DNA of 64,000 nucleotides from positions 62,001-126,000 of the forward strand of contig NZ_WWEP01000001.1 in the NCBI RefSeq assembly GCF_009848495.1. The letters run 5' to 3'. This DNA comes from Flavobacterium sp. MK4S-17 (GTDB taxonomy: Bacteria; Bacteroidota; Bacteroidia; Flavobacteriales; Flavobacteriaceae). A program made the position numbers and the translations under genes. Below, in pieces: positions 419-15,877 of the stretch. The notes beneath the pieces are model-generated. The model was not told the DNA's origin and searched no databases. It saw only the letters and a program-made list of their open reading frames with translations. Within the stretch, counting starts at the first letter, position 1, and every line of letters begins with the position of its first letter.

Positions 419-1291
419 ATGATAGAAATTAAATTGGGAACAATTGCCCAAACGGATAGAGGAGCATATATAGAATTAGATAAGGAAATTAGTAGTAGCG
501 AGCACGAAAAGTTACTTAAAGCAATATCGGAACTTCATTTTTATGAGAGTAATTTGAGATTGTTGGAAATGATAATTCTTAATAACAATGAGCTAACCGA
601 TTTAGCTAACACTGGGAAAGACTTAGTACATAACTCTCTTTCTTTTACAGGCGACAAAAGAGCTTACTATGTGCATCACCTTAATATGAACCGTAAATTT
701 TTAAACTATCTAAGTTCGATACGTAGTTTTTTGGATCACATTGAAACAAACACAAAACGTAGATATGGAAAGGAATCTTATAAAATTCAAGAATTTAAAA
801 AAATCACTGGTTATCTATACGATTCATATTTTGCGTACAGATTTTTGTATAAGCTAAGAAATTATTCTTTGCATTGTGGACTTCCAATTGATGACATAGA
901 GCTATCTGTGACAAAGGTTGGCGAAAATTCATTCAGACCTGAATATAAAGTTGAATTCGATGCAAGAGAATTGTTAGCAAATTATGCCGAATGGGGTCCT
1001 GTAAAATCTGATTTAAAGAAGATGGATAAATTCTCCGTATTTGAAGTAACCAATGATATGTTTCCGATTTTAACCGAATTATGGCAGAAAATTATGCAAC
1101 TATTCGAACCTGAGTTGAAGGAAGCAATTTCCTATATTACAAAAGAGACAGGTCATTTGAGGACCGATCATAATCATGTTTCTATATTTACTAACATTAT
1201 TTATGAAAATGACTCGCCTCGGTATTTCACTAATCAAATTATCCCATATGACATAATAGACTCAATCTTGTCTGAACTTAATTCGAAATAA
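419..1291 (+). CDS. HEPN-like helical protein, hypothetical
   Basis: This 290-residue protein is mostly helical and has no signal peptide or membrane segment. Residues 147-152 read RNYSLH inside a predicted helix (KLRNYSLHCG), which fits the R-x4-H motif of HEPN-domain ribonucleases common in abortive-infection and toxin systems. It follows the nuclease-like tail by 16 bases and lies 62 bases before the cysteine desulfurase, on the same strand, inside a defence island. This suggests an RNase-type effector or a regulatory HEPN partner, but the motif is short and the rest of the protein is not recognised. It could be an unrelated conserved hypothetical. Confidence 0.45.
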   Translation: MIEIKLGTIAQTDRGAYIELDKEISSSEHEKLLKAISELHFYESNLRLLEMIILNNNELTDLANTGKDLVHNSLSFTGDKRAYYVHHLNMNRKFLNYLSSIRSFLDHIETNTKRRYGKESYKIQEFKKITGYLYDSYFAYRFLYKLRNYSLHCGLPIDDIELSVTKVGENSFRPEYKVEFDARELLANYAEWGPVKSDLKKMDKFSVFEVTNDMFPILTELWQKIMQLFEPELKEAISYITKETGHLRTDHNHVSIFTNIIYENDSPRYFTNQIIPYDIIDSILSELNSK

Positions 1292-1353
1292 ACCTATTAG
1301 CAAAATAATTTATTCCCGAATTTTAAAGTGGCTAATTTCATTAAATTTGATGT

Positions 1354-2481
1354 ATGGACGAAAAAATAATATACCTTGATAATGCTTCAACAACCAGGCC
1401 GGATGATGACGTTATAAATGCGATGTCACTTGCAATGTCGCAAAATTATGGTAATGCAAGTAGTTCACATCAATTTGGTGAAAGAATAGGACAGGATGTA
1501 GAAAAAGCAAGAATGATGGTTGCCAGTTTAATTGGCGCTGATGCGGAGGAGATTACATTTACCTCAGGAGCTACTGAATCGATAAATACTATCCTAAAAG
1601 GTGTTGTTTCTAAAAATAAAAGTAATAGAGAGAAAATTATAACTGTTGAAACTGAACATTCTGCTGTACTCGACACGTGCAGATTTCTCGAAGAACAGGG
1701 TGTTGAAGTTGTTTATTTACCGGTTAATAGTGATGGGCTTATCGACCTTTCACTTTTGGAAAAAAATTTAGATGAAGACACTTTACTTGTCTGTGTTATG
1801 ATGGTTAACAATGAAACCGGAGTAGTCCAGCCTATTAAGGAAATAACACAGCTTGTTCACAAAGCTGGAGCTCTAATGATGACAGATGCCACTCAGTCGG
1901 TTGGAAAATTACCGATTGATGTCAGTTATTTAGACGTTGACTTCATGGCGTTTTCAGCCCATAAATATTATGGGCCAAAAGGGGTAGGAGGACTTTTTAC
2001 TAAAAAAGGAGTAAACGTCTTTTCTCCACTTATACATGGTGGAAACCATGAAAAGGGTAAGAGAAGTGGTACACTCAATGTTCCAAGTATAATTGGAATG
2101 GGAGTTGCTTCGCAAAAAGCACAAGATTCTATGGAGGAAAATCTGAAATTTATTTCCGATCTGCGCAACTTACTTGAATCAGAACTTCTACAAATACATG
2201 GTAGTTTTATAAATGGTTCATCTGAGCGTCGAGTTTATAATATAACAAATATATATTTCCCCAATATTGAAGCATCAGTACTAATAAAAAAACTTGATAA
2301 TATTTGTGTTTCAAATGGTTCTGCTTGCACCTCAAATATAATTGAACCATCACATGTCCTTAAAGCAATGGGTAAAGATGATAATATTTCATTCTCTTCA
2401 ATACGGTTCAGTTTAGGGAAGTACAATACAAAGGAAGAAATATTACAAGTTATAACCAGAATAAAAGAACTAATTGGATAA
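1354..2481 (+). CDS. sspA: Cysteine desulfurase of a DNA phosphorothioation (Ssp/Dnd-type) system
   Basis: A 375-residue fold-type I PLP enzyme of the NifS/IscS family, of ordinary length. It would release sulfur from L-cysteine as an enzyme persulfide and pass it to the ATP-pyrophosphatase SspD. The PLP lysine is Lys204 in SAHKYYGPKG, and the mobile persulfide cysteine is Cys325 in SNGSACTSN. The N-terminal YLDNASTTRPDD is typical of the family. A housekeeping IscS or SufS role is possible from sequence alone, but the gene is flanked by defence genes and faces an operon with DUF4007, ATPase and PAPS-reductase-like genes. It is transcribed convergently to sspBCD and is tightly joined to the GHKL ATPase gene downstream. 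A TAAATTTG box at 1342 is too close to the ATG to be confidently its promoter. Confidence 0.85.
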   Translation: MDEKIIYLDNASTTRPDDDVINAMSLAMSQNYGNASSSHQFGERIGQDVEKARMMVASLIGADAEEITFTSGATESINTILKGVVSKNKSNREKIITVETEHSAVLDTCRFLEEQGVEVVYLPVNSDGLIDLSLLEKNLDEDTLLVCVMMVNNETGVVQPIKEITQLVHKAGALMMTDATQSVGKLPIDVSYLDVDFMAFSAHKYYGPKGVGGLFTKKGVNVFSPLIHGGNHEKGKRSGTLNVPSIIGMGVASQKAQDSMEENLKFISDLRNLLESELLQIHGSFINGSSERRVYNITNIYFPNIEASVLIKKLDNICVSNGSACTSNIIEPSHVLKAMGKDDNISFSSIRFSLGKYNTKEEILQVITRIKELIG

Positions 2482-2485
2482 TTCT

Positions 2486-4897
2486 ATGTTTGAAATTACT
2501 AATGAGGAACTGTTTAAAGCGCTGTATTTTAGCGGAACTGAGGAGGACGTAGAAGTACTCCTTCAGAAATTTCCAACCATTTTTAACGACGATAACTGGG
2601 CTCCGCTAGGGGGGAATGAAAATATGTTTGGTATCGTAAGAAATCAGCAGTCAAGTCCCATTGCCGCATTAGTAGAAAAAGTAACTAATTCAATCGATGC
2701 TATTTTAACAAAGGAATGTCTTATAAAGGGAATTCAACCCGATTCTAGTGATGCACCTCAATCAATGGAAGATGCTATAAGAACTTTTTACCCCAATTAT
2801 AAAAATTGGGATTTGAAGCAGGCAAGGCGCAAACAATCTGAGGATATTCAAATTGTGGCAGATGGAACGCCACGTAATACCTCGGTCATTATTTATGATA
2901 ATGGCGAAGGGCAGCATCCTGAAAAGTTTGAGACAACTTTTCTTTCCCTAGTAAGAGGGAATAAGATTAATATCCAGTTTGTACAGGGAAAATATAATAT
3001 GGGTGGAAGTGGAGCACTGGTTTTTTGCGGTAAAAAGAGATTCCAATTAATTGGTTCAAAACGATATGACAATACAGGCGAATTTGGATTCACCCTAATA
3101 CGTCAAAAGAAAATTAGTGAAGCAGGAACCAACAGACGTTCCAGCCATTTTGAATATTTAAAAATCAATGGTGCCATTCCAAGCTTCGCGATACATGAGC
3201 TTGATTTAAAATTATATAATAGGAAGTTCTTAACAGGTACAATTATTAAACTATATTCATATCAGTTTCCTTCAGGTTATTCGGGTTTTGCGCAAGATTT
3301 AAATCAGTCTCTGAATGAATTCTTATTTGAGCCCGTTCTCCCATTGCTTACGGTTGATAAAAAAGAAAGGTATCCAAATAACAAAGTCCTTGAACTTGAC
3401 TTGTTTGGTTTAAAAAGGCGGCTGGAGGAAACAAATAGTGATTACATAGAAGACTATTTTTCAGAGGAATATGTGGACGAACTTTTTGGGAAGGCAAAAG
3501 TTACCTGTTACGTTTTTAAATCCAAGGCTGAAAAACATGATGTAAAAAAAAGCAAAGAAATTATCAGAAGTAGATTCTTCAAGAATAATATGTCTGTTAT
3601 GTTTTCAATAAATGGCCAGGTGCACGCTAGCTACACTTCGGAGTTTATCACAAGAACATTAAAATTTAATCTACTTAAGGACTATTTGCTGATCCATGTG
3701 GATTGTACCAACATGAATCCGGATTTCAGAGAAGAATTATTTATGGCCTCAAGAGATCGCCTGCGCGATGGCGATGAAGCTTTGGCACTACGGGAATACT
3801 TAGGCAAAAAATTGAGAAAAAGTTATCTTGATGAGATAAACAGACACCGTAAAGATAGTATTGGCCTTGAGAATGAAGATACTACAGAATTGATCAAGTC
3901 CTTTGCCAAGAATCTACCTAAGAACAGTGAACTATTTAAATTGCTTCAGCATACCCTGAAGCTCGAGGATAAGAAAGAAGAAAAAGAAAAGGAAGCAAAC
4001 AAAAAGCCATCTGAACCTAAAACAAAGCCTGAACCAAAACCGTTTTTACCACAACGTTTCCCTACCTTCTTTCAACTTTACAGTAAAAAAGATGGGATTA
4101 ATATTATAACCTTACCTAAAAACGGTGAGCGTACTGTAAGATTCGCCACGGATGTAGAGAATAACTATTTTGATCGTAGCGATAATCCCGGCGATTTAGA
4201 AATAAGTATACTATCAATAAAAAGAAATTCTTCGAATGGAGGTGATGAACCAGGAAATGGCACTAACATTTCCGGAACTTTAAATATTGCGAAAAGTAGC
4301 CCACATGAGGGCACAATTAAACTTTCTATTGAACCAACGGAAGAGATAAATGTTGGAGATGAAATAGAGGTTAAAGCATCACTGTCTGCTCCGGGAACAA
4401 CATTCGAAGAGATTGTATTGGTACGAGTAGCGGATAAAGAGGCTGTTAAAGAGAAGGTACCTGATGATACAGAAGATGACGATTCTATCGGGTTACCGAA
4501 ACTTCATAGAGTTAAAGAAGAAAACTGGAAAGCCTTAGAACAAAATAGTATTGAAATGAACCACCGTACGGTTATGAATCTTATCGCGGAAGGGGACCAG
4601 CTTCAGGATATATTTGTCAATCTGGATAGTCAAGTCTTTCTTAATCACAGATCAAAACTAAAAAGTGAGCAGCAAATACTAACCGCAGAGAAAAAGTATA
4701 TCACATCAGTCTATTTTCACACTTTATTCTTATACATGATTACCAAAAGAAGAAAGTATTCAATTTCGGTAGAAAGTGAAACAGGTACCAATCCAATTAG
4801 TATTGATGAATACATAAAAGATATCTTTGATAACTATTACTCCGACTTTCTATTGAATTTTGGAATGGAGCAATTGATGAATGTATTGGAAGAATAG
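2486..4897 (+). CDS. GHKL (Hsp90/MutL-fold) ATPase, ~800 residues
   Basis: Numbering here is from a possible TTG start at 2474, which overlaps sspA; the ATG at 2486, four bases after the sspA stop, is preferred, and either implies translational coupling. The N-terminal third is a GHKL ATPase: E68xxxNxxDA (Bergerat N-box helix), DNGEG at 142-146 (G1) and GKYNMGGSGA at 172-181 (G2, glycine-rich lid). A Lys/Glu/Pro-rich linker lies near residues 500-530. After it come a beta-rich region and a helical C-terminus that I cannot assign. GHKL proteins of this size occur in several antiphage systems as ATP-driven clamps or signal-transducing modules. Coupling to sspA suggests it belongs to the phosphorothioate system, perhaps in target sensing. 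Its role is inferred. Confidence 0.7.
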   Translation: MFEITNEELFKALYFSGTEEDVEVLLQKFPTIFNDDNWAPLGGNENMFGIVRNQQSSPIAALVEKVTNSIDAILTKECLIKGIQPDSSDAPQSMEDAIRTFYPNYKNWDLKQARRKQSEDIQIVADGTPRNTSVIIYDNGEGQHPEKFETTFLSLVRGNKINIQFVQGKYNMGGSGALVFCGKKRFQLIGSKRYDNTGEFGFTLIRQKKISEAGTNRRSSHFEYLKINGAIPSFAIHELDLKLYNRKFLTGTIIKLYSYQFPSGYSGFAQDLNQSLNEFLFEPVLPLLTVDKKERYPNNKVLELDLFGLKRRLEETNSDYIEDYFSEEYVDELFGKAKVTCYVFKSKAEKHDVKKSKEIIRSRFFKNNMSVMFSINGQVHASYTSEFITRTLKFNLLKDYLLIHVDCTNMNPDFREELFMASRDRLRDGDEALALREYLGKKLRKSYLDEINRHRKDSIGLENEDTTELIKSFAKNLPKNSELFKLLQHTLKLEDKKEEKEKEANKKPSEPKTKPEPKPFLPQRFPTFFQLYSKKDGINIITLPKNGERTVRFATDVENNYFDRSDNPGDLEISILSIKRNSSNGGDEPGNGTNISGTLNIAKSSPHEGTIKLSIEPTEEINVGDEIEVKASLSAPGTTFEEIVLVRVADKEAVKEKVPDDTEDDDSIGLPKLHRVKEENWKALEQNSIEMNHRTVMNLIAEGDQLQDIFVNLDSQVFLNHRSKLKSEQQILTAEKKYITSVYFHTLFLYMITKRRKYSISVESETGTNPISIDEYIKDIFDNYYSDFLLNFGMEQLMNVLEE

Positions 4898-4913
4898 CAT
4901 TAATTAGCAGAAT

Positions 4914-5747
4914 CTAGATTTTTATTATTTCTGCAACATACTCTTGTATTTCTATATAATTGTCACGTGGATCAAAAGGGATTATATTAATGTTATAATC
5001 TTTTCTCCATCTACTAACCTCTGTATTCGTTATTTCATTTTTATTCATTAATGCGAAGTGATCTGGAGATCCGCCGTGGAATATATTATGAATATACCCT
5101 AAAAGTAGTTTTAGTTCTGGGTCTTTCAAGGATGCACCAAAGAATAAAACATTACAGGTCGAAAATAAAACATGTAAGACACTTTGGTATCCTTTTTCCT
5201 TAAAAATAATATTTCGGTAATCTTTCTCAGTTAAAATAATTTCATTGGCTGCACTACCTGCATCACCATGAGCCTTGAGTAGAAAATGTTCATTAGTCAG
5301 AATATTGTAATTTACGGCACTAGCATTCTTATAAGTTAAGGGATTTTTGCTTTCGTGATATACTTTAGCGTATGCTTTTTCAATTAAAGTATCATAGTTA
5401 GTAGTGATTATAAATCTATTTTTTATTTTTATGATATCACACAACGTATCGGATGGGACCAAAGACTTATCGTCAAATCTCTTCTTAAAAAACTTAGGTA
5501 AATCGGATCCTAAAATATCTTTCAAATCTTCCGCTACGAGAAGAAAATTATTGGAATCATCCGTTAATTGAATAAGTTCTTCCCTTTTATCGTTCGTAAT
5601 TAAAGTATTACTATACGCTAAGTTAATCATTTCAATTAATAAATCTTTCCAGTTTGGTAACCCAGAAGACCTAGATATTCCCGCTCCAATATATATACCG
5701 AATGCACCTTTTACATAGGCTTCGCGAAGTTTAGGGATTACTTCCAT
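4914..5747 (-). CDS. SIR2-family protein (putative NAD-consuming effector)
   Basis: A 277-residue protein that is essentially one SIR2 domain. It has GAGIS at 21-25 with SSGLPNW after it, TTNYD at 115-119 and HG at 160-161, so the NAD-site Asn117 and His160 are present. It lacks the zinc-binding cysteine pairs of deacetylase sirtuins. SIR2 domains of this type act as NAD+ hydrolases in Thoeris, DSR and short-Argonaute defence systems, killing the infected cell by NAD depletion. It is the last gene of the operon that starts with sspB, seven bases after the DUF262 gene, and ends 16 bases from the convergent GHKL gene. No sensing domain is fused to it, so activation should come from a partner. 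NADase activity is inferred from the family. Confidence 0.8.
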   Translation of the reverse strand: MEVIPKLREAYVKGAFGIYIGAGISRSSGLPNWKDLLIEMINLAYSNTLITNDKREELIQLTDDSNNFLLVAEDLKDILGSDLPKFFKKRFDDKSLVPSDTLCDIIKIKNRFIITTNYDTLIEKAYAKVYHESKNPLTYKNASAVNYNILTNEHFLLKAHGDAGSAANEIILTEKDYRNIIFKEKGYQSVLHVLFSTCNVLFFGASLKDPELKLLLGYIHNIFHGGSPDHFALMNKNEITNTEVSRWRKDYNINIIPFDPRDNYIEIQEYVAEIIKI

Positions 5748-5754
5748 GATAATT

Positions 5755-6804
5755 TTAATTTAAAAACTTATTAGTAAAAACTCTATGTCTAATTTTGATG
5801 TTGTTTATTTCAGCACCACTAGTTTTAAATGCAATTATATAATCATAAAGGTCTTTATCATAAATTAGACTAGTTTTATCTTCAATTAGTTGTTCTGGTT
5901 GAGCATTATATTTTCTCCTTAAATTCTCAAATTTTACAAAGTCATCTGCAATTTTAGAGGCTTTTATTGTTTTAATTTTATCATAATTATTATATAACAA
6001 GTAAAACATATCGACGAAAGCCCATTTATTTTTAAAAATTCCTTTTTTGTAACTGTTGATTTTTTTTAATGTGTCCAAAACATCATTAGTCTTTTTCATT
6101 AAAGGTTGTAACTCCGCTAATGTAGAGTTTGCCTTGTCAATATACAATTGTCGCATATCAACTGCCTTTATGCTACGCTTACCATCGTAGTTACAAAGAC
6201 ACACCACATTATCTAGATAATCTTGATGTTTATATCTTGAATTAGATATTTTACAGTCATTATCAAAAAAGGGATGATTTTCAACTATTGAATTTATAGC
6301 TGTTCCAATGTTACTAGCTAAGGCATGTCGTAACTCTACAGGATTCAATCTCTCGCCCATTTGTAGTCTAGCAAAAAGCGATCTTATTTCTTCAGGTGTA
6401 GTGTTGTCAATAATGGATACATGAAGTTTATAATTAAGAAAGTGGTTAAGTAGTGTTTTATCATTATTTGATTTTAGACTTTTAAACTTTACCCCTTTGG
6501 TATTAAAACCATTTATTAATGCATCATTCAAGGTATAATTTACGCTATCATTATCGTCTACAAATTCCCAAATAGCTCTAATACGTTGCTGACCATCAGT
6601 TACTTCATACTTATAGCTTAGATCTGCAGGCGTCTCTCGTAGATAAAATTTTGGAATATCGTAACCTCTTAATATCGAGTCAATTAAAAGCTTTTTTTTC
6701 TGGGGATTCCAAACTGATGTTCGTTGATATTGAGGTTTTGGATTTATTTTATTTTTTAGCTGGATAAGTTCTTTAATGGACCAAGTCTCACTTTTAATTT
6801 GCAT
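5755..6804 (-). CDS. DUF262 protein without a recognised nuclease domain
   Basis: This 349-residue protein has the DUF262 (ParB/sulfiredoxin-like) signature: YQR at 26-28, VWNPQKKKLLIDSILRGYDIP, and DGQQR at 70-74 (YEVTDGQQRIRAIWEF). In SspE and GmrSD the equivalent domain binds and hydrolyses nucleotide, and in SspE it couples phosphorothioate sensing to nicking by a C-terminal HNH (DUF1524) domain. Here the protein ends at 349 residues, and I see no HNH motif in the helical C-terminal half. It could therefore be a sensor or switch that passes the signal to a separate effector. It sits 5 bases after the membrane-protein gene and 7 bases before SIR2. A DNA-sensing role is inference. Confidence 0.75.
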   Translation of the reverse strand: MQIKSETWSIKELIQLKNKINPKPQYQRTSVWNPQKKKLLIDSILRGYDIPKFYLRETPADLSYKYEVTDGQQRIRAIWEFVDDNDSVNYTLNDALINGFNTKGVKFKSLKSNNDKTLLNHFLNYKLHVSIIDNTTPEEIRSLFARLQMGERLNPVELRHALASNIGTAINSIVENHPFFDNDCKISNSRYKHQDYLDNVVCLCNYDGKRSIKAVDMRQLYIDKANSTLAELQPLMKKTNDVLDTLKKINSYKKGIFKNKWAFVDMFYLLYNNYDKIKTIKASKIADDFVKFENLRRKYNAQPEQLIEDKTSLIYDKDLYDYIIAFKTSGAEINNIKIRHRVFTNKFLN

Positions 6805-6809
6805 AGCCG

Positions 6810-7424
6810 CTACCTGTTAAGTTTGGTTAAACGTTGTTCAAGTTCAAATTTTCTTTGTTCTAGTAATTGATCGAGATTTCTAGGAAATGTTAAATTAGTA
6901 AATCTGCTTATGTCTCCAGTTAAAGCTCCATCGTAGGCCAATCTCAGTATTAAAAAATGGGTTGTTGCTAGAGGTAAAGTTACAGTTCTTAAGTTTGTAT
7001 CATCAATTAATCCCGCTTTATCGTGGATTAACTTTTCTGTTAATTCACCTATTTTTATAATTTCATCTAGAAGAATTTTGTCGTTTCCAGAAAATACATG
7101 CCCATTAAGAAGATAAATTAAAGTTGAAAAATTTGCATCATTAACTCTATATTTCTCTGTAAACTTTTCATATAGTAAGTTACTCTTTTTTCGAAGTTGT
7201 AGGAGCGGCCCATATAATTCGTCTAATTTTTTCCTAATTTCTGCTCTTTCCTCATCTTCTTTCTTAGCTTTCAATGTTTTCATTATCTGAATATAAGAAA
7301 ACCATAAAGCTAATAACCCTATAATTATAGGACCAAGATCTTTAACATATGACAACCAATCCAAAGGAATTTTGCTTGGTTCATTGAAGTTATTTATCAC
7401 ATTATTTAGGCAAAGTGATACCAT
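6810..7424 (-). CDS. Single-pass membrane protein with cytoplasmic coiled coil
   Basis: A 204-residue protein with one hydrophobic segment, LGPIIIGLLALWFSYIQI (about residues 30-47), then a charged helix (KAKKEDEERAEIRKKLDELYGPLLQLRKK) and a helical remainder. No enzymatic motif is visible. Its start overlaps the end of the NDT-like gene by 23 bases and its stop lies 5 bases before the DUF262 gene, so it is embedded in the operon. Small membrane proteins in defence operons often anchor a sensor or disturb the membrane. Either would fit, but I do not recognise the family. Confidence 0.6.
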   Translation of the reverse strand: MVSLCLNNVINNFNEPSKIPLDWLSYVKDLGPIIIGLLALWFSYIQIMKTLKAKKEDEERAEIRKKLDELYGPLLQLRKKSNLLYEKFTEKYRVNDANFSTLIYLLNGHVFSGNDKILLDEIIKIGELTEKLIHDKAGLIDDTNLRTVTLPLATTHFLILRLAYDGALTGDISRFTNLTFPRNLDQLLEQRKFELEQRLTKLNR

Positions 7425-7818
7425 TCATTATTTTTTTTAAAAAATTTATACCGTCTTCTAGATTATCAAATACAATAGTAGCGCTTTCACGAACAATTTC
7501 AAATCTTGCGGCAAAATTTTTGTCTACTTTGGATTTTTCGTCAATTAATATTATTGATTTATCCATAGCTCTAGCATACCCGACCTCCAAAGTTAGTCCA
7601 ATACCGGAAGGATTGTCACTTTGCATATAGGCAAATAGAATGTCAGATTGCTTTACGTAAAATAAATCCCAGAAAGTATATTCCGTGCTATCTGTCAGGG
7701 AGTGCTCTCTTGGATTGTAAAAAATAAAATTTTCAGAGTTAATAGATTCAATTACATTTTTTTGCCAGTTTGATTGATTCATTCCACCAGCTAAATATAC
7801 TTTTGTTTTCATGTTCAT
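7402..7818 (-). CDS. Nucleoside 2-deoxyribosyltransferase-like protein
   Basis: About 139 residues from the ATG at 7818, which overlaps the sspD stop in an ATGA arrangement; an in-frame ATG 18 bases upstream lies inside sspD and is less likely. The protein begins KVYLAGGM and has SDILFAYM, then SGIGLTLEVGYARAM with Glu78. This is the nucleoside 2-deoxyribosyltransferase (NDT) Rossmann-like fold with its catalytic glutamate in the G-xx-xE-xGYA context. NDT-like proteins cleave or transfer the glycosidic bond of deoxynucleosides, and relatives have been proposed as nucleotide-targeting or ligand-binding parts of conflict systems. Next to a SIR2 gene this suggests nucleotide or NAD-derivative processing. 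The substrate is unknown. Confidence 0.75.
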   Translation of the reverse strand: MNMKTKVYLAGGMNQSNWQKNVIESINSENFIFYNPREHSLTDSTEYTFWDLFYVKQSDILFAYMQSDNPSGIGLTLEVGYARAMDKSIILIDEKSKVDKNFAARFEIVRESATIVFDNLEDGINFLKKIMNGITLPK

Positions 7819-8921
7819 ATAAAACAAGACGCGCAACCTTCCTCTTCAGTATCGTCCAGGATATCCAAGAGGTAAGGGGATTTTTTATCTTGTGTTGATT
7901 TTAAAGTTTTTGCTATATGGTCTTGTTTTATTCTTGCCATACGTTCAGGTTTAATAATATCTTCAAGGCTTTCTTCCTGCATCCAAGTATATCCTGACTT
8001 TTCATACTCCATAGCTAAAGCAAACTTATCGGGATGCTGTTCATATAGCCAAATCCATTCTATTTTCTGTTGAAAAAAGCAGAAATAGCAGCCTGATCTA
8101 CTGCGGGCATAAGCTCCAGTTTCTCCATTAATTTCGTAGGGCACTTTTTCATAATACTTCGGAACGCCTACACCACTATTCCGCAACAGGTTAAAAATAT
8201 CTTCACGTACGAGATTATCTTCATTTTCTAACAACTGAAAATCATCGCAATGCGATAGCGGATACTCTGTTGTCTTTATATATTGGAATACAACCTTATT
8301 AAAAGACTTAGTACTAATTTCCAACAAATCCTGAAGTTTTGAATGCATATCATATTTCGCTGATATACGCTCTTCCAAAATTTCATTTACTCTACTTAAG
8401 TGGTGTTGTTCTATAGTATCAGCATACAAGTTCTTAAGTTGATCAATGTTACTATTCTTAAGCACTTTTTTTATGACATCTTCACTCCAAATGTTTTTTC
8501 TAAAAGGAAATATTGATTGGATGTTATTTTTTTTTGAAATATATCCTTCACGATTCTCGTCTCCTCTAATGCCGACATAAGATATGACAGGATCATTACC
8601 AATCCATTTCTCAAAAGGTTCAAGTTTTAATTTTTTGGTACACCAGCGAGCATTAGATGAAGGTAGGTATCCACCAAACAGATTCAAAAAATGATCAAAA
8701 GGTTCCTCATGGCTACCGGGAGCCGCTTCAATACGCGCTACGGTTTTTCCGGTGTATACTTCAATGCCTTTTATCAGGTCATAAGTTTCCTGAAGTTCTT
8801 TACCTGTATCTGTAAAGTAATATTCTATATCAAGATCCGGATATTTGTCATAGAGGTAAATAGCAAGTGCACCGCTATCCTTACCGCCCGATATACCCAT
8901 CACGTGCCTTACTTTCTTCAT
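7815..8921 (-). CDS. sspD: DNA phosphorothioation ATP-pyrophosphatase (PAPS-reductase-like)
   Basis: A 368-residue protein of the PAPS reductase/ATP-PPase superfamily, like DndC and SspD. The PP-loop SGGKDS is at 11-16 (HVMGISGGKDSGALA), followed by FTDTGKELQETY. Cysteines that could hold an Fe-S cluster are in WCTKK, SGCYFCFFQQ and the extreme C-terminal CASC. The enzyme would activate the DNA backbone by adenylation and receive sulfur from SspA. The start overlaps the sspC stop as ATGA, and the stop overlaps the start of the NDT-like gene, so the three genes are translationally coupled. Assignment to Ssp rather than Dnd rests on the DUF4007 gene in the same operon and the absence of DndB and DndE homologues. 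Confidence 0.82.
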   Translation of the reverse strand: MKKVRHVMGISGGKDSGALAIYLYDKYPDLDIEYYFTDTGKELQETYDLIKGIEVYTGKTVARIEAAPGSHEEPFDHFLNLFGGYLPSSNARWCTKKLKLEPFEKWIGNDPVISYVGIRGDENREGYISKKNNIQSIFPFRKNIWSEDVIKKVLKNSNIDQLKNLYADTIEQHHLSRVNEILEERISAKYDMHSKLQDLLEISTKSFNKVVFQYIKTTEYPLSHCDDFQLLENEDNLVREDIFNLLRNSGVGVPKYYEKVPYEINGETGAYARSRSGCYFCFFQQKIEWIWLYEQHPDKFALAMEYEKSGYTWMQEESLEDIIKPERMARIKQDHIAKTLKSTQDKKSPYLLDILDDTEEEGCASCFI

Positions 8922-11900
8922 TTTTTCAGTTCTTTCTGCAGTAAGCTGGTTAAAACTGCTATATTCACCCTGCTATCTTTACTTAAAGCTAATTTAAGCT
9001 CAGCCTCTTTGTTTTCAACTTCTTTGTTTTTATTCTTTGGTAAACGTACCAAATTTTTCTTTAATCCATCTACAAAAGACGTAATTTCAATCTGAAAGAC
9101 GTTCTCGTTTGCTTCGTCAAAATCCTGTTTACTTAAATCACAAAGGTTATCCAATTCACGAATCATTTCAGTAAATAAGCTATACAGTCTAATTTCCTCA
9201 TCGTCCGAAATGTTCTCAAGCGTTTTACCTAAACACACCTGCACCAAAGAATTTAGCCATGCTATCCTGTCGTCAAGCGGCGAGTTAATTCTTTGGATGA
9301 ACGCTTTTTGTTCCGGTTTGAGAAAATGTCGTTTTATTGCTGAAAACCTGTTTTGCAATTCCGACTTATATGTTTCAAAATCATTTGATTTGCCCAAAAT
9401 GTCTTCTGCCAAGAAATTCTCAAACCTTTCGATCAGGTGGGTGTAACTGAACCTTATTTCTTTAATACTCAATTGTAGGTCAGTAACATAGTTGCCCAGT
9501 AATTTTTCATCTTTCTGTAGCTGAGTAAGACTATAACCCATAGCAGCAGGAAAATCCTCAAAGAAGGCTTTTTCTGGATCCGTTGATTGGGCAATAGCAG
9601 CTCGCAACCGTATTGATTGCAAACTAATACGTTCAGTGTTCTTTGAGTAATAATTTATATCCTTTGCATAAAATTTCAAGAATGGCTTGATTGTTTCAAT
9701 GAAACTTTGATTGCTAAGCTTTTCCTTTTCAGATTGCTGAAGGAGTTTTCGATATTGATTAAATAAGGCTAGTCTGATTCCTTGTACATCAAACGCTTTC
9801 ACTTCGAATTTCTGTGGGTCCCTTGAAACCAATTCTAATGTCTCATCTGTCAGCTCAGGAATATAGATATCATTACTAAATAATGCAAAATCATTTCTGT
9901 TAATATAGAGAAATATTGGAATCCAAAAATCAATAAATCCCTGTTTTAGTTTAAATGGCTTTGTCGACATTTGTTGTACAAAATCGCCAAGGTTTCTCTT
10001 ACTATGTTTGGCTGAATTCAAGAAATCAATTCCCAAATGCCATAATGGGGCAAAGCTAGGGTCATTCGGTTCACCTAAATCAAAGCTACCGTTATTATTC
10101 TCATAGTGTATTCCGGTTTGAGAAATTAAACTCAAATAAATTGTTTTATCTGGTGGGAATGTGTTGGGAAGATAGCCTATTTGTGGCGAATTCCAGTTGC
10201 CCGTAAGGTGTCTCATCATCATTTTTCGCGCTGTAGATATTGCAGATGATATTTTTGTTTTATTTACCATCTCATTTTTATAAATAGGAACAGCATGATA
10301 TATATTATCCGAAAGCCTGGATAACCACCTATTTAAATCTCTCATGCCATTTATCTCTCTACGTTGCCCCTGAATGATCCAATCTACAGAATGTTCATTT
10401 GAATAAAGATCTTCTAAAACTAATTTGTTAAGCATCATGATATGGTGATCCTCTATGAGAGTCAACTCTTCTGTTGCTATCTTATCATCAATATGGTCTG
10501 CCTTAACTTTCCTTATTTTAAGGATTTCATATATTGCATTTTGGATTTTGGAAGTATTCTTGTACAGTACGAAAATAATTGCTTCGTTACAGTTTTCGGA
10601 TAAATTAATTACATCTTCTAATGTACTGTCCGTATCGAATATAAGTTGGATGTAACCGTCTATCTCACCTTCCGGAGTAAGTGTAACCGGTCTGTCAACT
10701 AATTGAAAAGAAAAAATACGAGGCGTGCCTTTCTCATGGAATACAGATTTAGCGGACAAATGATGAAAATTAAAAAATTCTGACAGGTAGGGTATTAGCG
10801 AGCGCGGTGCTTCTACATGAACGGCAGCATCCAGCAGTTCTTTCTCGATATCAAGATCCGTACCTTCCCATATTTTATAACGGCTAGAGAATTCAACATA
10901 TCTAATTACGCGAAGAACGGTCAGTTCTTCCAATACTTTAGCAGTATTTGAGAAGGAAAAGGTATATCGAGCGTACTTATCAAGGAAGTCTGGGTCTATA
11001 TGTCCTGAGGCAGACGAAAATATATTTAATAAACCTATGGTTTTTACAATATTAATTGCGTTAGCTTTTTCTCCGCTATAAAAACCCTCAATACGCTCAA
11101 TGGCTACCCTAATGTTTGTCCACTGTGCAAAATGAGGATTAAACTTACTTGTCAGAAAAGTATAATAGTTGTGAATTAGATAATCATAAACATTTGATAG
11201 GTTAAAATATTTATTATTTTCTAAGTCAAACGATGAAATACCATATGGATCATTAGATTCCAGGAACGAAAATAGTGACCGCTCGTTTTGTCCATAATTT
11301 TGTAGGGCTAGTGTAAGTGCTGCCGCTGATAGTAAGTCGAAAGGTACTAGCTCTTTTGCAATTTCTTCAGTAAAATAATCACGTAAAGGAAAAAGCCTAC
11401 TTTTATTAATTGCTTTAAAAAGTTCATTGGCATTTTCAGAATCTTTGTTAAAAGAAAGCTGAGCGGTCCTTTTCGCTGCTAGGAAGAGTAGTTGTTCGAC
11501 CGGTTCATTGAAAGTTATTTCCTTAAGACGCCCTTTTACTTTATCCCATTCATTCTGCTGTGTTTTATTTAAAGTATACGCATACTGGCTGAAATCCTGA
11601 TGTAACGTACTAATCAACAAAATATTTTTAGCCGGGTCATTTACATATTCAGCAAGTTGTTGAATAAAATATAATTCAGTATCAGGATTATTTTTTGCTG
11701 CAAACTCAAGAAACTTTCCAAATTCATCAATTACTATAATTATACCCTTGTTCTTTTCCTCGGATTCCTTGTATAGCTTGGTTAGGCATTTGAGAATATC
11801 TTCAGTATTGGAAGAACTAATTCCAAAATGTTTTGCAAATACATTGGTCAAGGAACCATGGGTTCCGACAAATTTTATTACATCGAAAGAATTTATTGAG

Positions 11901-12154
11901 GTAGTAAATTTGTTTTGAAAATAATTAGTGGAATTTTCTAAATCGCTTAAAAGCGCTTTTAAAAAAGCGGACTTTCCAGTTCCGTATGCTCCAACAAGAT
12001 TAAATGCCCTAGTACCAATTTTATAGTCTTTAACTATTTGTTTATAAACCTGTAGTGAGTTAGGGGTAACAATATAGTTCAAGTCAACATTCTGATCTCT
12101 AATAATATTGACTGAAGGTGAGAACGCCTTATATGTATTATCTGTAATATTCAT
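8918..12154 (-). CDS. sspC: Large P-loop ATPase of the Ssp phosphorothioation module
   Basis: This 1,078-residue ATPase has Walker A GAYGTGKS at 55-62 and Walker B IIIVIDEFGKF with D143-E144, an AAA/STAND-like N-terminal domain. About 700 residues of helical, unassigned sequence follow. The N-terminus (FSPSVNIIRDQNVDLNYIVTPNS) resembles BrxC/DndF-type defence ATPases. SspC in characterised systems is an ATPase needed for single-strand phosphorothioate modification; the detailed role is not settled. The start overlaps the end of sspB by 17 bases and the end overlaps sspD by 4, so B-C-D form one unit. The name is given on gene order and ATPase signature. The protein is long, and a BREX-like ATPase is the main alternative. 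Confidence 0.75.
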   Translation of the reverse strand: MNITDNTYKAFSPSVNIIRDQNVDLNYIVTPNSLQVYKQIVKDYKIGTRAFNLVGAYGTGKSAFLKALLSDLENSTNYFQNKFTTSINSFDVIKFVGTHGSLTNVFAKHFGISSSNTEDILKCLTKLYKESEEKNKGIIIVIDEFGKFLEFAAKNNPDTELYFIQQLAEYVNDPAKNILLISTLHQDFSQYAYTLNKTQQNEWDKVKGRLKEITFNEPVEQLLFLAAKRTAQLSFNKDSENANELFKAINKSRLFPLRDYFTEEIAKELVPFDLLSAAALTLALQNYGQNERSLFSFLESNDPYGISSFDLENNKYFNLSNVYDYLIHNYYTFLTSKFNPHFAQWTNIRVAIERIEGFYSGEKANAINIVKTIGLLNIFSSASGHIDPDFLDKYARYTFSFSNTAKVLEELTVLRVIRYVEFSSRYKIWEGTDLDIEKELLDAAVHVEAPRSLIPYLSEFFNFHHLSAKSVFHEKGTPRIFSFQLVDRPVTLTPEGEIDGYIQLIFDTDSTLEDVINLSENCNEAIIFVLYKNTSKIQNAIYEILKIRKVKADHIDDKIATEELTLIEDHHIMMLNKLVLEDLYSNEHSVDWIIQGQRREINGMRDLNRWLSRLSDNIYHAVPIYKNEMVNKTKISSAISTARKMMMRHLTGNWNSPQIGYLPNTFPPDKTIYLSLISQTGIHYENNNGSFDLGEPNDPSFAPLWHLGIDFLNSAKHSKRNLGDFVQQMSTKPFKLKQGFIDFWIPIFLYINRNDFALFSNDIYIPELTDETLELVSRDPQKFEVKAFDVQGIRLALFNQYRKLLQQSEKEKLSNQSFIETIKPFLKFYAKDINYYSKNTERISLQSIRLRAAIAQSTDPEKAFFEDFPAAMGYSLTQLQKDEKLLGNYVTDLQLSIKEIRFSYTHLIERFENFLAEDILGKSNDFETYKSELQNRFSAIKRHFLKPEQKAFIQRINSPLDDRIAWLNSLVQVCLGKTLENISDDEEIRLYSLFTEMIRELDNLCDLSKQDFDEANENVFQIEITSFVDGLKKNLVRLPKNKNKEVENKEAELKLALSKDSRVNIAVLTSLLQKELKK

Positions 12155-13043
12155 TTAATATTTGCCATTTATCGAAAGTCTTTTTAATCTGTAATGTTTG
12201 ATTACCTGCCGTTTCGTTGTAAACCAGTCCTTCGAATTTGTTGGTTATTTTAATAATTTGTTCGTAAAGGCCTTGTGCGCTCAAGGCAAATACATTACCC
12301 GGAGAATTAACTCCTGCTAAAAGCTGCCTGAAACTAATTGATTGTTGATCTTCATAGTTATCAAGGATTTGATAAAAGACAATTTCAAAAGGTAAATTCC
12401 TACGAATACCTGCCTCAATTTTGAACCAGTCAGTTAATGTTCCATCAATATTACGTTTCTGATATGGAACTATCAGTTCCAAATCCAGGAACATATTTGC
12501 AAAGGATTCTTCAATTTCAAGTTTGCTTTTTTTCTCAGGCCTGTTATAACTTCTTAGCAATACATTTATATCTGTATTTATCGTATTTTCATTATAACGT
12601 ATATTTGAATCATCGTCGTCACACTTCCTTTTAAGATACGAATGAAGTTGTTCCTTTGTAAAATCAACTCTTTCTTTACGAAATTCATTAAACATTAAAG
12701 AATATATTGACGCCTTATTTCTTTTTATTAGATGGTAATGTAAAAGCCATAATGTACCAATGTCCTCAATATATGGATCAAACCCAGCATTAGAAAAAAA
12801 ATTATCAGCAAAATCGGTCGGGTTTTCGTGCTCTTCATCAATAAGGTCAAAAGATTTCATCCAATATCTTATAGAAGCAACCATATTTTTACCAACCCCT
12901 AAATCCACAACAGCTGAAGTATCGTTAAATGACTTATTGGCAACAACAAAATCATATCCTTTTTTAAGCCAAAATTGTTTGCAAGCAAAAGTCTCATGAC
13001 CGGAAAAATGTAACCTTTGCTTTTCTAAATTCGTAATCATCAT
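12138..13043 (-). CDS. sspB: DUF4007 protein, SspB-type DNA nickase component
   Basis: A 301-residue protein opening with the DUF4007 hallmark: RLHFSGHETFACKQFWLKKGYDF (residues 10-32), then VVDLGVGKNMVASIRYWMK. DUF4007 is the defining domain of SspB in SspABCD systems, where SspB is reported to nick DNA for single-strand phosphorothioation at a short motif. There are two ATG codons in a row; the first is used here. It is the first gene of the minus-strand defence operon. The 105-base upstream gap separates it from the TPR/AraC gene on the same strand, and base composition changes there from AT-rich to GC-rich. I could not place a clear -33/-7 promoter in the gap. Family assignment is strong; nickase function follows from the family. 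Confidence 0.82.
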   Translation of the reverse strand: MMITNLEKQRLHFSGHETFACKQFWLKKGYDFVVANKSFNDTSAVVDLGVGKNMVASIRYWMKSFDLIDEEHENPTDFADNFFSNAGFDPYIEDIGTLWLLHYHLIKRNKASIYSLMFNEFRKERVDFTKEQLHSYLKRKCDDDDSNIRYNENTINTDINVLLRSYNRPEKKSKLEIEESFANMFLDLELIVPYQKRNIDGTLTDWFKIEAGIRRNLPFEIVFYQILDNYEDQQSISFRQLLAGVNSPGNVFALSAQGLYEQIIKITNKFEGLVYNETAGNQTLQIKKTFDKWQILNEYYR

Positions 13044-13148
13044 CTCAAATCAATTTGACTGTAAATTAACGAAAAAATTGTAGATTTTCTTCTAAGCTGC
13101 TATACAGTTGCTAACAATTTATTAACCAATTGCTTGATTTTAGGAAGG

Positions 13149-14804
13149 TTATGATTGGTTTATTTTCTTAATTTCCTCCACAAAATACCCAGGCGAAATC
13201 TCTGTCCTCTTCTTAAAAGCCGTCGTGAAATGCTGTGCCGTGCTAAACCCCGCCTCATCTGCCAGGGCGCCATTGGTATATTTGCGCAATAGCGGTTCCG
13301 CCTTTAACCGCTCTACGATATAATCAATCCGCAGGTCGTTGATATAATTGACAAAGCTCTTTTGCTTTTGATGGCGTATCACTTTGGACAGGTATTTATA
13401 ATTGGTATTAAAGCTTTCCGCTAATTTTGTGGCGGTAATTTCCTTTTTTAAAAAGCCGTTCTTTTTCTCAAAATCCTGCAGCTTTGAAATTATGTGCTGC
13501 ACTATTTCAGGATTGATATCCAGTTCACCATTAGTGGGACGTACAGGCTCAGGCTGCTGACGCATATCTTTTTTTAAGAGGGTCTCAAAACGTTCCTTAT
13601 AGCGCCTTCGCAAGCCCAGGTATCTTCTGACAATTAATGTAACCGCAATCAGCATCACTACCAGCAAAGCCTTAAAGAGCCAGCCTGACCACCTGCTCCT
13701 TGATAGGTCGTCCTGCAACTTCTTTTTTTCTGCCTGCAGGTCTGCCGTATCGTATTCCTTGTGGACTTTCGTTAACAGGTACCGGAACCTCAGGTTCAGG
13801 ATGCTGTCCGCCTGTAACAGCCGGTCCACATACTTTAGCTGTTCAGTTGTATTCCCTTTTCTATGATAATGCCGGATGAGGAATTCATAGCTTTCCCGCA
13901 GGTCGGGCCGGATGTACTGCCTCGCAGTGAACGTACTGTCCACTTTGATAAAGTAGTGTACCGCTTTAGCCGTATCGGCCTTTGCAGCGTAGGATTTTCC
14001 CAAATAAAAGTGGGCAACAGCCTCATTGGCAAAGTCGTCTGCCTTGCGCAGTTCCGGCAGCGAGTAGCGAAGGTGGGTAATGGCCCGGTCAAACCGCTGC
14101 CGCTTGTAATTGGTGATCCCATCTGCCAATTCAATATAAGGCAGCAGCAACCTGATCCCAAGGCGCCGGCTCTCTTCCAGCGCCAGCACGCTTGTAGCCT
14201 CAGCAAGATCGAGGGCATCAGTGTAAGTGTAGCATAAGCTCAGGCTGTGGAGTGAAATGAGGTAGGGCAGGGGTTCAGTATCCCCGTAATAATCCACACA
14301 CTGCCGGAATAACGCTATGGCCTCGTTATAGTAGCCCAGGTAGTATTTGATCTGCGCGATACTGTATTTTACTTTGTGAATAAGATATTGATCCCGTGTC
14401 CCAACAAGGTAACGGTTAGCAGTAAGGTAATTGTCAAGGGCAAGGCGGTGCTGCTTGCGCTGGTAGTAAACCACTCCCTTTGACAGGTATGCAGACCCTA
14501 TCAGGTCATTGTCTTCAGCTTTTTTGGCGGCCATTATCATGCTGTCCGCATACACCAGGCGTTTGCTTTCATCGCACTCATGCATGATCTCCTGATACGC
14601 TGCAACCATTTGCGCCCAGTCCTTTTCCTTTTTCGTTTTCGCCAGATAGGCATCCAGGTACTGCCAGACCTTCGGCGTGCCCTGGTACATTCCTATACGT
14701 TCAATAAGGCTATCGTACGGTGATCCTTCCGGGATATTCTGCTGAGCAGTCATGACAGACGGCAAAACGATATACAGGAGGGCTCCCAAAAATTTTACTT
14801 TCAT
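13149..14804 (-). CDS. TPR-containing, membrane-spanning AraC-type regulator
   Basis: The preferred start is the ATG at 14,804, which gives a signal-peptide-like N-terminus (MKVKFLGALLYIVLPSVMTAQQ); an ATG 33 bases upstream is open but adds a poor leader. Residues ~30-380 are TPR-like helical pairs predicted to be periplasmic. A transmembrane helix (WLFKALLVVMLIAVTLIV) follows. The C-terminal ~100 residues are an AraC helix-turn-helix (LAESFNTNYKYLSKVIRHQKQKSFVNYIND, then DEAGFSTAQHFTTAFKKRTEISPGYFV). This one-protein sensor/regulator architecture is widespread in Bacteroidota. It stands alone at the edge of the GC-rich ICE backbone, upstream of and co-oriented with the ssp operon. It could control its own divergent neighbour, the transfer operon or the cargo; the target is unknown. 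Confidence 0.85.
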   Translation of the reverse strand: MKVKFLGALLYIVLPSVMTAQQNIPEGSPYDSLIERIGMYQGTPKVWQYLDAYLAKTKKEKDWAQMVAAYQEIMHECDESKRLVYADSMIMAAKKAEDNDLIGSAYLSKGVVYYQRKQHRLALDNYLTANRYLVGTRDQYLIHKVKYSIAQIKYYLGYYNEAIALFRQCVDYYGDTEPLPYLISLHSLSLCYTYTDALDLAEATSVLALEESRRLGIRLLLPYIELADGITNYKRQRFDRAITHLRYSLPELRKADDFANEAVAHFYLGKSYAAKADTAKAVHYFIKVDSTFTARQYIRPDLRESYEFLIRHYHRKGNTTEQLKYVDRLLQADSILNLRFRYLLTKVHKEYDTADLQAEKKKLQDDLSRSRWSGWLFKALLVVMLIAVTLIVRRYLGLRRRYKERFETLLKKDMRQQPEPVRPTNGELDINPEIVQHIISKLQDFEKKNGFLKKEITATKLAESFNTNYKYLSKVIRHQKQKSFVNYINDLRIDYIVERLKAEPLLRKYTNGALADEAGFSTAQHFTTAFKKRTEISPGYFVEEIKKINQS

Positions 14805-14935
14805 GGCAATCTTTTGTATGGCTTTGAGTGATAGCAAAGCAATAGGCGGTTATCATACTGTTTGGGAGACTTACTATCCCAAATTTAATTTAAAGTCCGT
14901 TAAAGAAAACTTAACACTCCGATAAAGTTACACTC

Positions 14936-14953
14936 TGTAATTCCGGAATTACA
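14936..14953. promoter_or_regulatory. 18-bp perfect palindrome in divergent intergenic region
   Basis: TGTAATTCCGGAATTACA is a perfect 18-bp inverted repeat between the TPR/AraC gene and the lipoprotein gene, about 50 bases upstream of the lipoprotein promoter's -33 box. This is the size and placement of a dimeric repressor or activator operator. Which regulator binds is unknown. The rest of the 14,805-15,123 gap holds this palindrome and the promoter, and I see no credible gene in it. Confidence 0.5.
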
Positions 14954-14985
14954 CAGCTGCTATACCGGAACGCCACAGGTATTCC

Positions 14986-15017
14986 TTTGTTTTGCAAGAG
15001 GTTGTAAAATAGTTTTG
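14986..15017 (+). promoter_or_regulatory. Bacteroidota sigma-ABfr-type promoter for the lipoprotein gene
   Basis: TTTG at 14,986-14,989 and TAGTTTTG at 15,010-15,017 are separated by 20 bases, matching the Bacteroidota consensus TTTG-N19-21-TAnnTTTG. Transcription would start near 15,024 and leave a leader of about 100 bases before the ATG at 15,124. Confidence 0.55.
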
Positions 15018-15123
15018 TCCTGAATTCACAACTGAGGGAATCGTGAAAAAATTTCCTTGTTCTGCTCCCCGGGCGAATGGAACTGAAGAAAAGATTCAGT
15101 AACATTTTTTAAACTATCCAACT

Positions 15124-15825
15124 ATGAAGGCAATTACTTCATCTATCGTTTTGTTATCCCTGATGGCTGCCTGCAGCCCTGAAGATACTGTGTCGGATAT
15201 GACAACAATTGAGCAGGCCGCTTATAATAAACAAGGTGCTGTTTCACCGTCAAATCCCGCCAACCCCTACGACCACATTGGCTCCATCTATAGGAACCTG
15301 CTTGACAGTTACTATGCCATACCCCACCAAAACCTAACCCTTGAACAGGTAATTTCCGGGGGAGAAGCACTCCTGATGCAGGATCAGGCCTTTCTGACGC
15401 TGCTGAAAAATGAGCCTTATGTTCCGGTAACTGCTGAAGAAATCCAACCTTACCTTGACGTTGAAGGTAATATTTCTGCGCTGCTTGACCAGCGGTATGG
15501 CCTTGAAGCCGTTGAAATTTACCAGTCTGTCACCAATACACTGGAACCGCTACTACAGGCTGATGCCCCATACTCCGAAATCCGCGCTGCACTTATCGCG
15601 ATTGAAGATCTCGCCATCCATTCGGAAGAGCTATCTGAAGCTGACCGCGCTGTGGTACTCACCACTATATCAATAGTACGCAACGCCCTTCATAAAGGCG
15701 GCAAGCCAAGGCGGCGTGACAGGGATTGGGAATGGATGATCGGTAATATCGCAGCCACTGCCAATGCGACCCTGGACTCCAAACCACAGGCTATTATGGC
15801 TTGCTTTGCGACTGACGTGTATTAG
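15124..15825 (+). CDS. Hypothetical lipoprotein
   Basis: A 233-residue protein with a lipoprotein signal peptide: MKAITSSIVLLSLMAACS, with lipobox LMAAC and lipidated Cys17. The mature part is acidic and helical, with no motif I recognise. It lies in the regulatory head of the ICE between two AraC-type genes, has its own promoter upstream, and ends 6 bases before a strong terminator, so it appears to be a single-gene transcript. Envelope location is supported. Function is unknown. Confidence 0.7.
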   Translation: MKAITSSIVLLSLMAACSPEDTVSDMTTIEQAAYNKQGAVSPSNPANPYDHIGSIYRNLLDSYYAIPHQNLTLEQVISGGEALLMQDQAFLTLLKNEPYVPVTAEEIQPYLDVEGNISALLDQRYGLEAVEIYQSVTNTLEPLLQADAPYSEIRAALIAIEDLAIHSEELSEADRAVVLTTISIVRNALHKGGKPRRRDRDWEWMIGNIAATANATLDSKPQAIMACFATDVY

Positions 15826-15831
15826 AACAGC

Positions 15832-15866
15832 ATAATCCCGAAAGCCTTTTTCGGGATTATTTTTTA
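15832..15866 (+). terminator. Rho-independent terminator after the lipoprotein gene
   Basis: ATAATCCCGAAA (15,832-15,843) pairs perfectly with TTTCGGGATTAT (15,849-15,860), a 12-bp stem with a 5-base loop, followed by TTTTTAT on the plus strand. Confidence 0.85.
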
Positions 15867-15877
15867 TACGAGTGTTT

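Follow-up and report, generated by a model that had tools for sequence, protein, structure and literature searches.

We analysed a 64,000-nucleotide stretch of DNA (the window) from Flavobacterium sp. MK4S-17 (contig NZ_WWEP01000001.1, positions 62,001 to 126,000), in which a gene for a predicted GHKL ATPase (2486..4897, plus strand) directly follows sspA, the cysteine desulfurase gene of an Ssp phosphorothioation (PT) locus. This ATPase and its close relatives form a clade that is tied to Ssp, in which it is an optional accessory and not part of the PT-writing core. The reading that we prefer, tentatively, is that the ATPase is an Ssp-dedicated switch that couples the PT mark, or the SspBCD proteins, to exchangeable effectors. 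A fuller version, in which it is a new Ssp component, an ATP-driven switch of Hsp90/MutL type that senses the phosphorothioate state of the DNA and gives exchangeable effectors, some of them not nucleases (a SIR2 NADase or a protein kinase), licence to act, asks more of the data, and we put it forward with greater reserve, as a possibility.

Linkage of the ATPase to Ssp loci

Scanning one genome per species across 84,980 species yielded 417 relatives of the ATPase, of which the best 80 were analysed. At least one of sspB, sspC and sspD lay in the fetched DNA of 70 of these 80 loci, and all three in 61 (full loci). In nine of the remaining ten, the sequence ends within 2 kb on one or both sides; the tenth (L031; numbers with L and G are our own for loci and genomes) has sspA directly upstream, and sspBCD were not found within about 10 kb of it. 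The 70 Ssp-linked loci come from seven named phyla: Bacteroidota (53), Poribacteria (8), Nitrospirota (2), Pseudomonadota (2), and Ignavibacteriota, Gemmatimonadota and Acidobacteriota (1 each), with two unassigned.

The same association appeared in two samples of 395 genomes each. In the phylum sample, 11 genomes carried a relative of the ATPase; all six with at least 50% identity, the window's own genome among them, were sspC-positive, and all five at 39% or less were sspC-negative. In the class sample, four of the five close carriers (at least 50% identity) were sspC-positive, two of these four being also in the phylum sample; the window's genome and G122 belong to both samples. The probability of such an overlap between carriers and sspC arising by chance was 1.5e-8 (phylum) and 4.9e-6 (class), or 2.6e-7 and 1.1e-4, respectively, when the window genome was removed. 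Three sampled genomes recur among the 80 loci (G122 is L090, the Flavihumibacter soli locus; G385 is L080; G664 is L032), so the locus survey and the genome samples overlap as evidence. A preliminary description, made from the letters of the window, had placed the ATPase in a DNA-sulfur system, and these counts bear it out. It had also raised the prospect that the gene is mostly stand-alone or always accompanies a different system; within the clade, taken down to about 43% identity, it is neither.

Plasmid homologs at 51, 44 and 43% identity also lie in Ssp loci (those at 43–44% in Alphaproteobacteria), and for a plasmid homolog at 26% no Ssp locus was shown within 8 kb. The homolog in G409 (41% identity) has no Ssp gene beside it, and that genome lacks sspC. 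In a tree of 35 hand-picked rows, all 23 Ssp-linked rows fell on one side of a branch labelled 98*; L156–L159 were scored as non-Ssp from their flanks only, L160 and L161 were left out, and the order among the non-Ssp rows is unsure because of long branches. It is very improbable that the ATPase is a defence-island passenger with no functional tie to Ssp. Defence genes do cluster, and unrelated modules share the same islands, but the linkage spans the seven named phyla, the tree has a single Ssp side, and two SspBCD classes have been crossed with Ssp nevertheless kept.

Early tables hinted at a constant component, because the ATPase had been the bait. Converse searches with sspC ruled this out: among the 30 genomes of the two samples that match model PDLC02776 at about 300 bits or more (the weak matches in G025, G098, G159, G517 and G698 were dropped), 22 lack the ATPase in question. 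A tightly co-evolving core subunit was likewise ruled out, as the pairwise identities of the ATPase track those of SspC less well (r = 0.69) than do those of SspB (0.95) and SspD (0.92). These comparisons, like the module and tree counts below, use 61 rows: the window and all full loci but L036. The rows fall into two SspBCD classes (49 and 12), between which the median identity is 25% for SspC, 29% for SspB, 48% for SspD and 55% for the ATPase, and the class label needs three changes on the ATPase tree. The simple reading is that the ATPase has been transferred between SspBCD backbones, although an ATPase that changes more slowly could likewise reduce the contrast in identity.

These figures bear on a role on the modification side, in which the ATPase, as a chaperone or remodeller, would assemble SspBCD or set the place and density of PT. 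We consider such a role unlikely. An Hsp90-type fold and the constancy of SspBCD as neighbour across effectors would suit it; set against this are the frequent absence of the ATPase from sspC genomes, its looser tracking of SspC, and the described Ssp systems, which in the available parts of their reports name no such protein (PMC8092258, PMC13251355).

Gene start, fold and C-terminal part

Begun at TTG 2474, the open reading frame at 2474–4897 (plus strand) would encode 807 amino acids. We favour ATG 2486 as the probable start because homologs start close to it. This start and the sspA stop (sspA, 1354..2481, plus strand) are separated by 4 nt, and the TTG start overlaps that stop by 8 nt, in agreement with the preliminary description, which had given an overlap or a distance of four bases. 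The upstream gene matches the PADLOC models of SspA (491 bits) and DndA (484 bits) almost equally, and its product carries SAHK and GSAC motifs. Across the survey, sspA was present in 27 of the 80 loci and directly upstream of the ATPase in only 12, where the two genes overlap by 8 nt (L027, L029 and L031) or are separated by 3 nt (L030) or 9–24 nt (the remaining eight), distances that rest on starts from a simple open-reading-frame script. The proposed coupling to sspA therefore stands as a close junction in the window and falls as a specific partnership; the linkage is to the whole Ssp locus.

The product is, by its modelled structure and conserved residues, a predicted GHKL ATPase of Hsp90/MutL type with Bergerat and transducer folds. 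In an alignment of the window protein with those of 69 of the 80 loci (A2, without L031, L035, L036, L043, L054, L055, L057, L058, L064, L070 and L106, which are partial, near-duplicate or interrupted), E64, N68, D71, D138, G140, G142, Q143, G168, K169, N171, G173, G174, G176 and G251 (numbered from the ATG) are identical in 70 of 70 sequences. The ATP-site residues of all three Bergerat motifs (N-box, DxGxG and Gly-rich lid) are thus invariant, as expected from the intact motifs noticed in the window. These residues and a match to the Hsp90 N-domain place the Bergerat-fold domain at approximately 2588..3253, with its DNGEG motif at 2897–2911; a transducer or Hsp90 middle-like domain containing LFMASRDRL follows at approximately 3254..3862, and in it R415, R423 and R425 are kept by all 70 sequences. 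Pfam HATPase_c_3 matched at 23.2 bits, just below its 25-bit cut-off, and searches of PADLOC, NCBIfam and PDB sequences returned no match. An AlphaFold2 model (mean pLDDT 78.8) supports the MutL/Hsp90-type fold suggested earlier: residues 43–459 superpose on Hsp90/TRAP1 over its N and middle domains, the best match having Z 14.8 and rmsd 4.3 with 294 residues aligned, and the Foldseek list includes SMCHD1, MORC2, topoisomerase VI and topoisomerase IV.

Modelled alone (pLDDT 77.8, pTM 0.44), the C-terminal part resolved into a predicted Ig-like beta-sandwich (4049..4444; VIA-align Z up to 8.1, graded middling by the tool) and an alpha/beta tail of about 130 residues (4499..4894) that has no fold match and in which N712, Y743, H745 and Y785 are invariant. 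The preliminary description had looked to this part for a nuclease or DNA-binding fold. None was recognised by Pfam across the 70 members, by PDB sequences or in the fold lists, which were filled by the Hsp90 and Ig parts and left the last approximately 130 residues, a tail not folded alone, in effect unprobed; within that scope, a C-terminal nuclease gained no support. The recognition of modified or unmodified DNA by the ATPase, also proposed there, is possible.

Exchangeable modules and the role of the ATPase

Besides sspBCD and the ATPase, 60 of the 61 full loci contain a further module; only in L085 was none recognised. The labels assigned to such modules cover up to two open reading frames before and up to three after the span from sspBCD to the ATPase, so a few modules may sit outside the operon, and the labels TM and PIN-like were assigned by eye. 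One labelled module was counted in 41 of the 61 rows, two in 15 and none in five. Four of these last five are L062, which has SspE; L098, with a PDC-M62 (Septu-like) pair; L048, with GIY-YIG-like and DndB-like genes, both below the Pfam cut-offs; and L033, with ParB-like genes and a DUF6602 gene; the fifth is L085. The dropped locus L036 contains a C5/C15/C10 module (C numbers denote our protein families). The set as a whole comprises DUF262 with SIR2 (the type in the window), DUF262 with a Ser/Thr kinase, a DndB-like protein with a small partner, a second GHKL protein (C3, MzaB-like) with GIY-YIG, a third GHKL protein (C6) with C14/C13 or C21, C5 with AAA-like C10 and C11, a Mrr-type nuclease, full SspE (L062, where a bona fide SspE, at 731 bits to its model, adjoins the ATPase) and the Septu-like pair of L098. 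Module type needs at least 34 changes on the ATPase tree and 36 on the SspC tree, and L100 and L103 have near-identical ATPases and different modules. With a companion nearly always present and its type often changed, the best reading of the gene content is that the ATPase would be a helper rather than a lone effector.

The counts also bear on a proposal that we regard as rather unlikely, namely that the ATPase is itself the restriction effector, a single-gene alternative to SspE that inflicts ATP-gated damage through its C-terminal tail and is stacked with other effectors by island building. It is a single gene that crosses SspBCD classes, its orientation often implies transcription apart from sspBCD, its tail has invariant residues, L085 offers it without a recognised companion, and stacking is common, with two labelled modules besides the ATPase in 15 of 61 rows. 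Yet nearly every full locus has a companion, loci without the ATPase often have a single labelled module, and no nuclease or toxin family was recognised in the protein, the tail again not having been folded alone.

We therefore return to the ATPase as an accessory switch. Hsp90/MutL-type folds belong to dimeric, ATP-gated clamps and chaperones, and a dimerising ATPase of this type would open and close, driven by ATP hydrolysis. It would contact what the loci share, either the PT mark itself or SspD with the writing complex; we infer this to be the most likely contact because the ATPase is kept as effectors change, needs none of them, and accompanies SspBCD proteins that have diverged yet stays with PT. 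It would then convey PT status to whichever effector occupies the exchangeable slot, which is held by DUF262 and SIR2 here and elsewhere by DUF262 and a kinase, SspE, DndB-like proteins or nucleases. Its output would be the licensing or boosting of that effector, with no DNA cutting of its own. Such a switch is favoured because of the argument from shared partners, the clamp or chaperone fold, and the MutH-domain neighbour of a non-Ssp relative. This relative, L021 (G103; 39% identity), is the nearest non-Ssp one with a known setting; at 6015–16205 it has a C5 methyltransferase, a protein with two MutH domains, which we take to be Sau3AI-like, a calcineurin-like phosphoesterase and another GHKL protein. 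Nucleases of the MutH kind are activated by MutL during mismatch repair.

Several observations weigh against this reading. The survey of loci used the ATPase as bait and covers the 80 best of its 417 relatives. One close carrier in the class sample, G452, has no detectable sspC, its gene being cut by the contig start. L085 has the ATPase without a recognised module, although a second locus with Ssp and the ATPase (L073) lies on another contig of the same isolate. When module labels were shuffled on the ATPase tree, a mean of 41.6 changes was needed (s.d. 1.8, minimum 35; none of the 200 shuffles was as low as 34); module type is therefore non-random on the tree, and the ATPase and some modules are passed on together. 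Ssp loci that lack the ATPase have effector modules too, so none of these strictly needs it: 17 of 22 such loci have a labelled module from the same pool (12 with a C3- or C6-type GHKL protein at 98 bits or more, five with another), L138 and L147–L149 have no counted module, and L171 is too short to judge. Finally, basic residues are not in excess in the protein, and both the Ig-like domain and the tail are net acidic; a DNA clamp is therefore not favoured.

GHKL proteins of other families sit in a comparable position. A C3 (MzaB-like) or C6 (HATPase_c_3 and HATPase_c) protein lies beside sspBCD in the 12 of the 22 loci without the window's ATPase noted above (L135–L137, L139, L140, L142–L146, L169 and L173). 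They resemble it in being GHKL proteins adjoining sspBCD, and differ in belonging to separate families: in profile comparisons with the window family, C3 and C6 scored 1.7% and 2.0% probability, against 96.9% for C3 with C6. If unrelated GHKL families have been recruited to Ssp repeatedly, a switch of this sort may be a common requirement of PT-based immunity. In L139, a tandem array of six similar proteins of about 230–260 amino acids (MITLFRRIRQKL...) was seen by eye at 683–5772, upstream of the Ssp locus.

Relatives of the ATPase also occur on eight IMG/VR contigs, at 27–35% identity except for L154 (45%), the contig of which carries sspC. No Ssp genes were found in the flanks of L155–L161 (27–35%), the 597-kb contig of L155, the one of these searched along its whole length, had no sspC match, and no INPHARED phage matched the window ATPase. 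The viral relatives, the optional and mobile nature of the gene, and a RIIA protein among its viral-model fold matches might point to a phage sensor or a counter-counter-defence factor (for example, one that shields Ssp from an inhibitor), with an indirect tie to PT. This is decidedly unlikely, given that such a role in itself needs no linkage to Ssp and that the relatives on phage contigs are distant, apart from the one that has sspC.

If the switch reading is true, one sulfur-marking backbone could be wired to many kinds of attack, and the ATPase, which persists across seven named phyla as effectors come and go, offers a mutable candidate link from mark to attack. How self is told from non-self where sulfur is present at only some of the sites is discussed as an open question in the available part of an earlier report (PMC8092258).

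Locus contents and comparison with described systems

By its PADLOC matches the window holds a complete predicted Ssp PT locus, with all four genes within 12 kb. Downstream of sspA, sspBCD lie at 7.8–13.0 kb on the opposite (minus) strand: sspD (PAPS-reductase-like, 7815..8921, 310 bits), sspC (a BrxC-like ATPase, 8918..12154, 1,329 bits) and sspB (a DUF4007 protein, 12138..13043, 358 bits; Pfam DUF4007, 274.5 bits). Between them and the GHKL ATPase, also on the minus strand, lie genes for a SIR2-domain protein (4914..5747), a candidate NADase effector with TTNYD and KAHG motifs (Pfam SIR2_2, 91 bits; ThsA model, 95.7 bits), and for a DUF262/GmrSD_N protein (5755..6804), assigned by Pfam and its DGQQR motif, in which no C-terminal nuclease half was recognised. 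DUF262 proteins without an SspE-type nuclease half are found beside SIR2 in the window (4914–6804), L028, L030, L049, L082, L097 and L105, and beside a Ser/Thr kinase in L032, L034, L060, L069 and others. DG[QH]QR is present in 19 of 23 DUF262 relatives, and both strict SIR2 motifs in four of seven SIR2 relatives (window included). Such pairing suggests candidate PT-gated depletion of NAD or phosphorylation.

The next two genes on the minus strand form an accessory pair: a small protein with a hydrophobic stretch, judged by eye to be a membrane protein (6810..7424), which has relatives in five fetched loci (L018 and L090, from one genome, L030, L063 and L083), and a nucleoside 2-deoxyribosyltransferase-like protein (7402..7836; Pfam PF15891, 52.5 bits). 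The pair (6810–7836) recurs in the Ssp loci L030, L063, L090 and L134, and may be a nucleotide-based effector, because it is the sole labelled module in L134. Two open reading frames precede sspA (1–402 and 419–1291), the first of which is complete in L012 at 11362–12402 and has a stretch (VDIK...FYEVKSA) that by eye resembles a PD-(D/E)xK nuclease; neither had a Pfam match, or relatives among the compared Ssp loci L013–L106.

The SspABCD–SspE system reportedly dates from an original report in 2020. The window resembles it in having sspA and sspBCD, and in the DGQQR motif of the SspE N-terminal domain, which is found in the window's DUF262 protein; it differs in that DUF262 stands alone beside SIR2, the GHKL ATPase is additional and SspE is absent (PMC13251355, seen in part). 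The DUF262 protein has 349 amino acids, GmrSD_N only and no match to the SspE model at E ≤ 0.001. As SspE unites DUF262 and HNH/DUF1524 in one protein, this protein was rejected as an SspE, and the GHKL protein has no PADLOC match. With SspABCD–SspFGH, the window shares PT-writing genes accompanied by separate restriction genes (PMC8092258, in part). There, SspF has a Walker A motif and SspH is FtsK-like. None of ten window proteins had a PADLOC match to sspF, sspG or sspH, in a library not confirmed to hold these models. In agreement with the preliminary description, to which the ATPase was unfamiliar from described Ssp systems, no GHKL protein is named with either described effector, SspE or SspFGH, in the available parts of those reports (PMC13251355, PMC8092258). 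GHKL, MutL, MORC and Hsp90 are absent from the main texts of a survey of PT systems (PMC10853773) and one of BREX (PMC12839542), and no description of the ATPase with Ssp was found in searches of the open-licence PubMed Central literature.

Hsp90 and TRAP1 share the N and middle domains with the window ATPase, but with 10–14% identity in the rows shown, a different C-terminal part, and a setting that for the ATPase is DNA modification. Other GHKL proteins in defence or restriction loci include Shedu with a GHKL domain (PMC12137116) and paraMORC-like kinases (PMC8011034), according to the parts of those papers available. The nearest described kind is the MORC/paraMORC ATPases, GHKL proteins proposed to serve restriction–modification systems (PMC2292703, in part, as for all MORC comparisons here). 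They are like the window ATPase in combining GHKL with an S5-type transducer, in occurring in DNA-modification neighbourhoods and in being widely transferred, and the C5-methyltransferase/MutH-domain setting of its non-Ssp relative L021 is a further likeness; the window ATPase is unlike MORC in its attachment to PT and in its C-terminal Ig-like domain and tail. MORC sensu stricto was rejected, as the S5 motif GhXhhpXXRhl, sought with one strict regular expression, occurs in 0 of 70 sequences. The comparison with paraMORC1–5 is by description only, and a C-terminal restriction-endonuclease fold like that of paraMORC3 had no match in Pfam (70 members) or the fold lists, with the tail not folded alone. 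If the preferred reading of the ATPase is correct, the MutL/MORC theme of methylation-based restriction would extend to sulfur in the DNA backbone.

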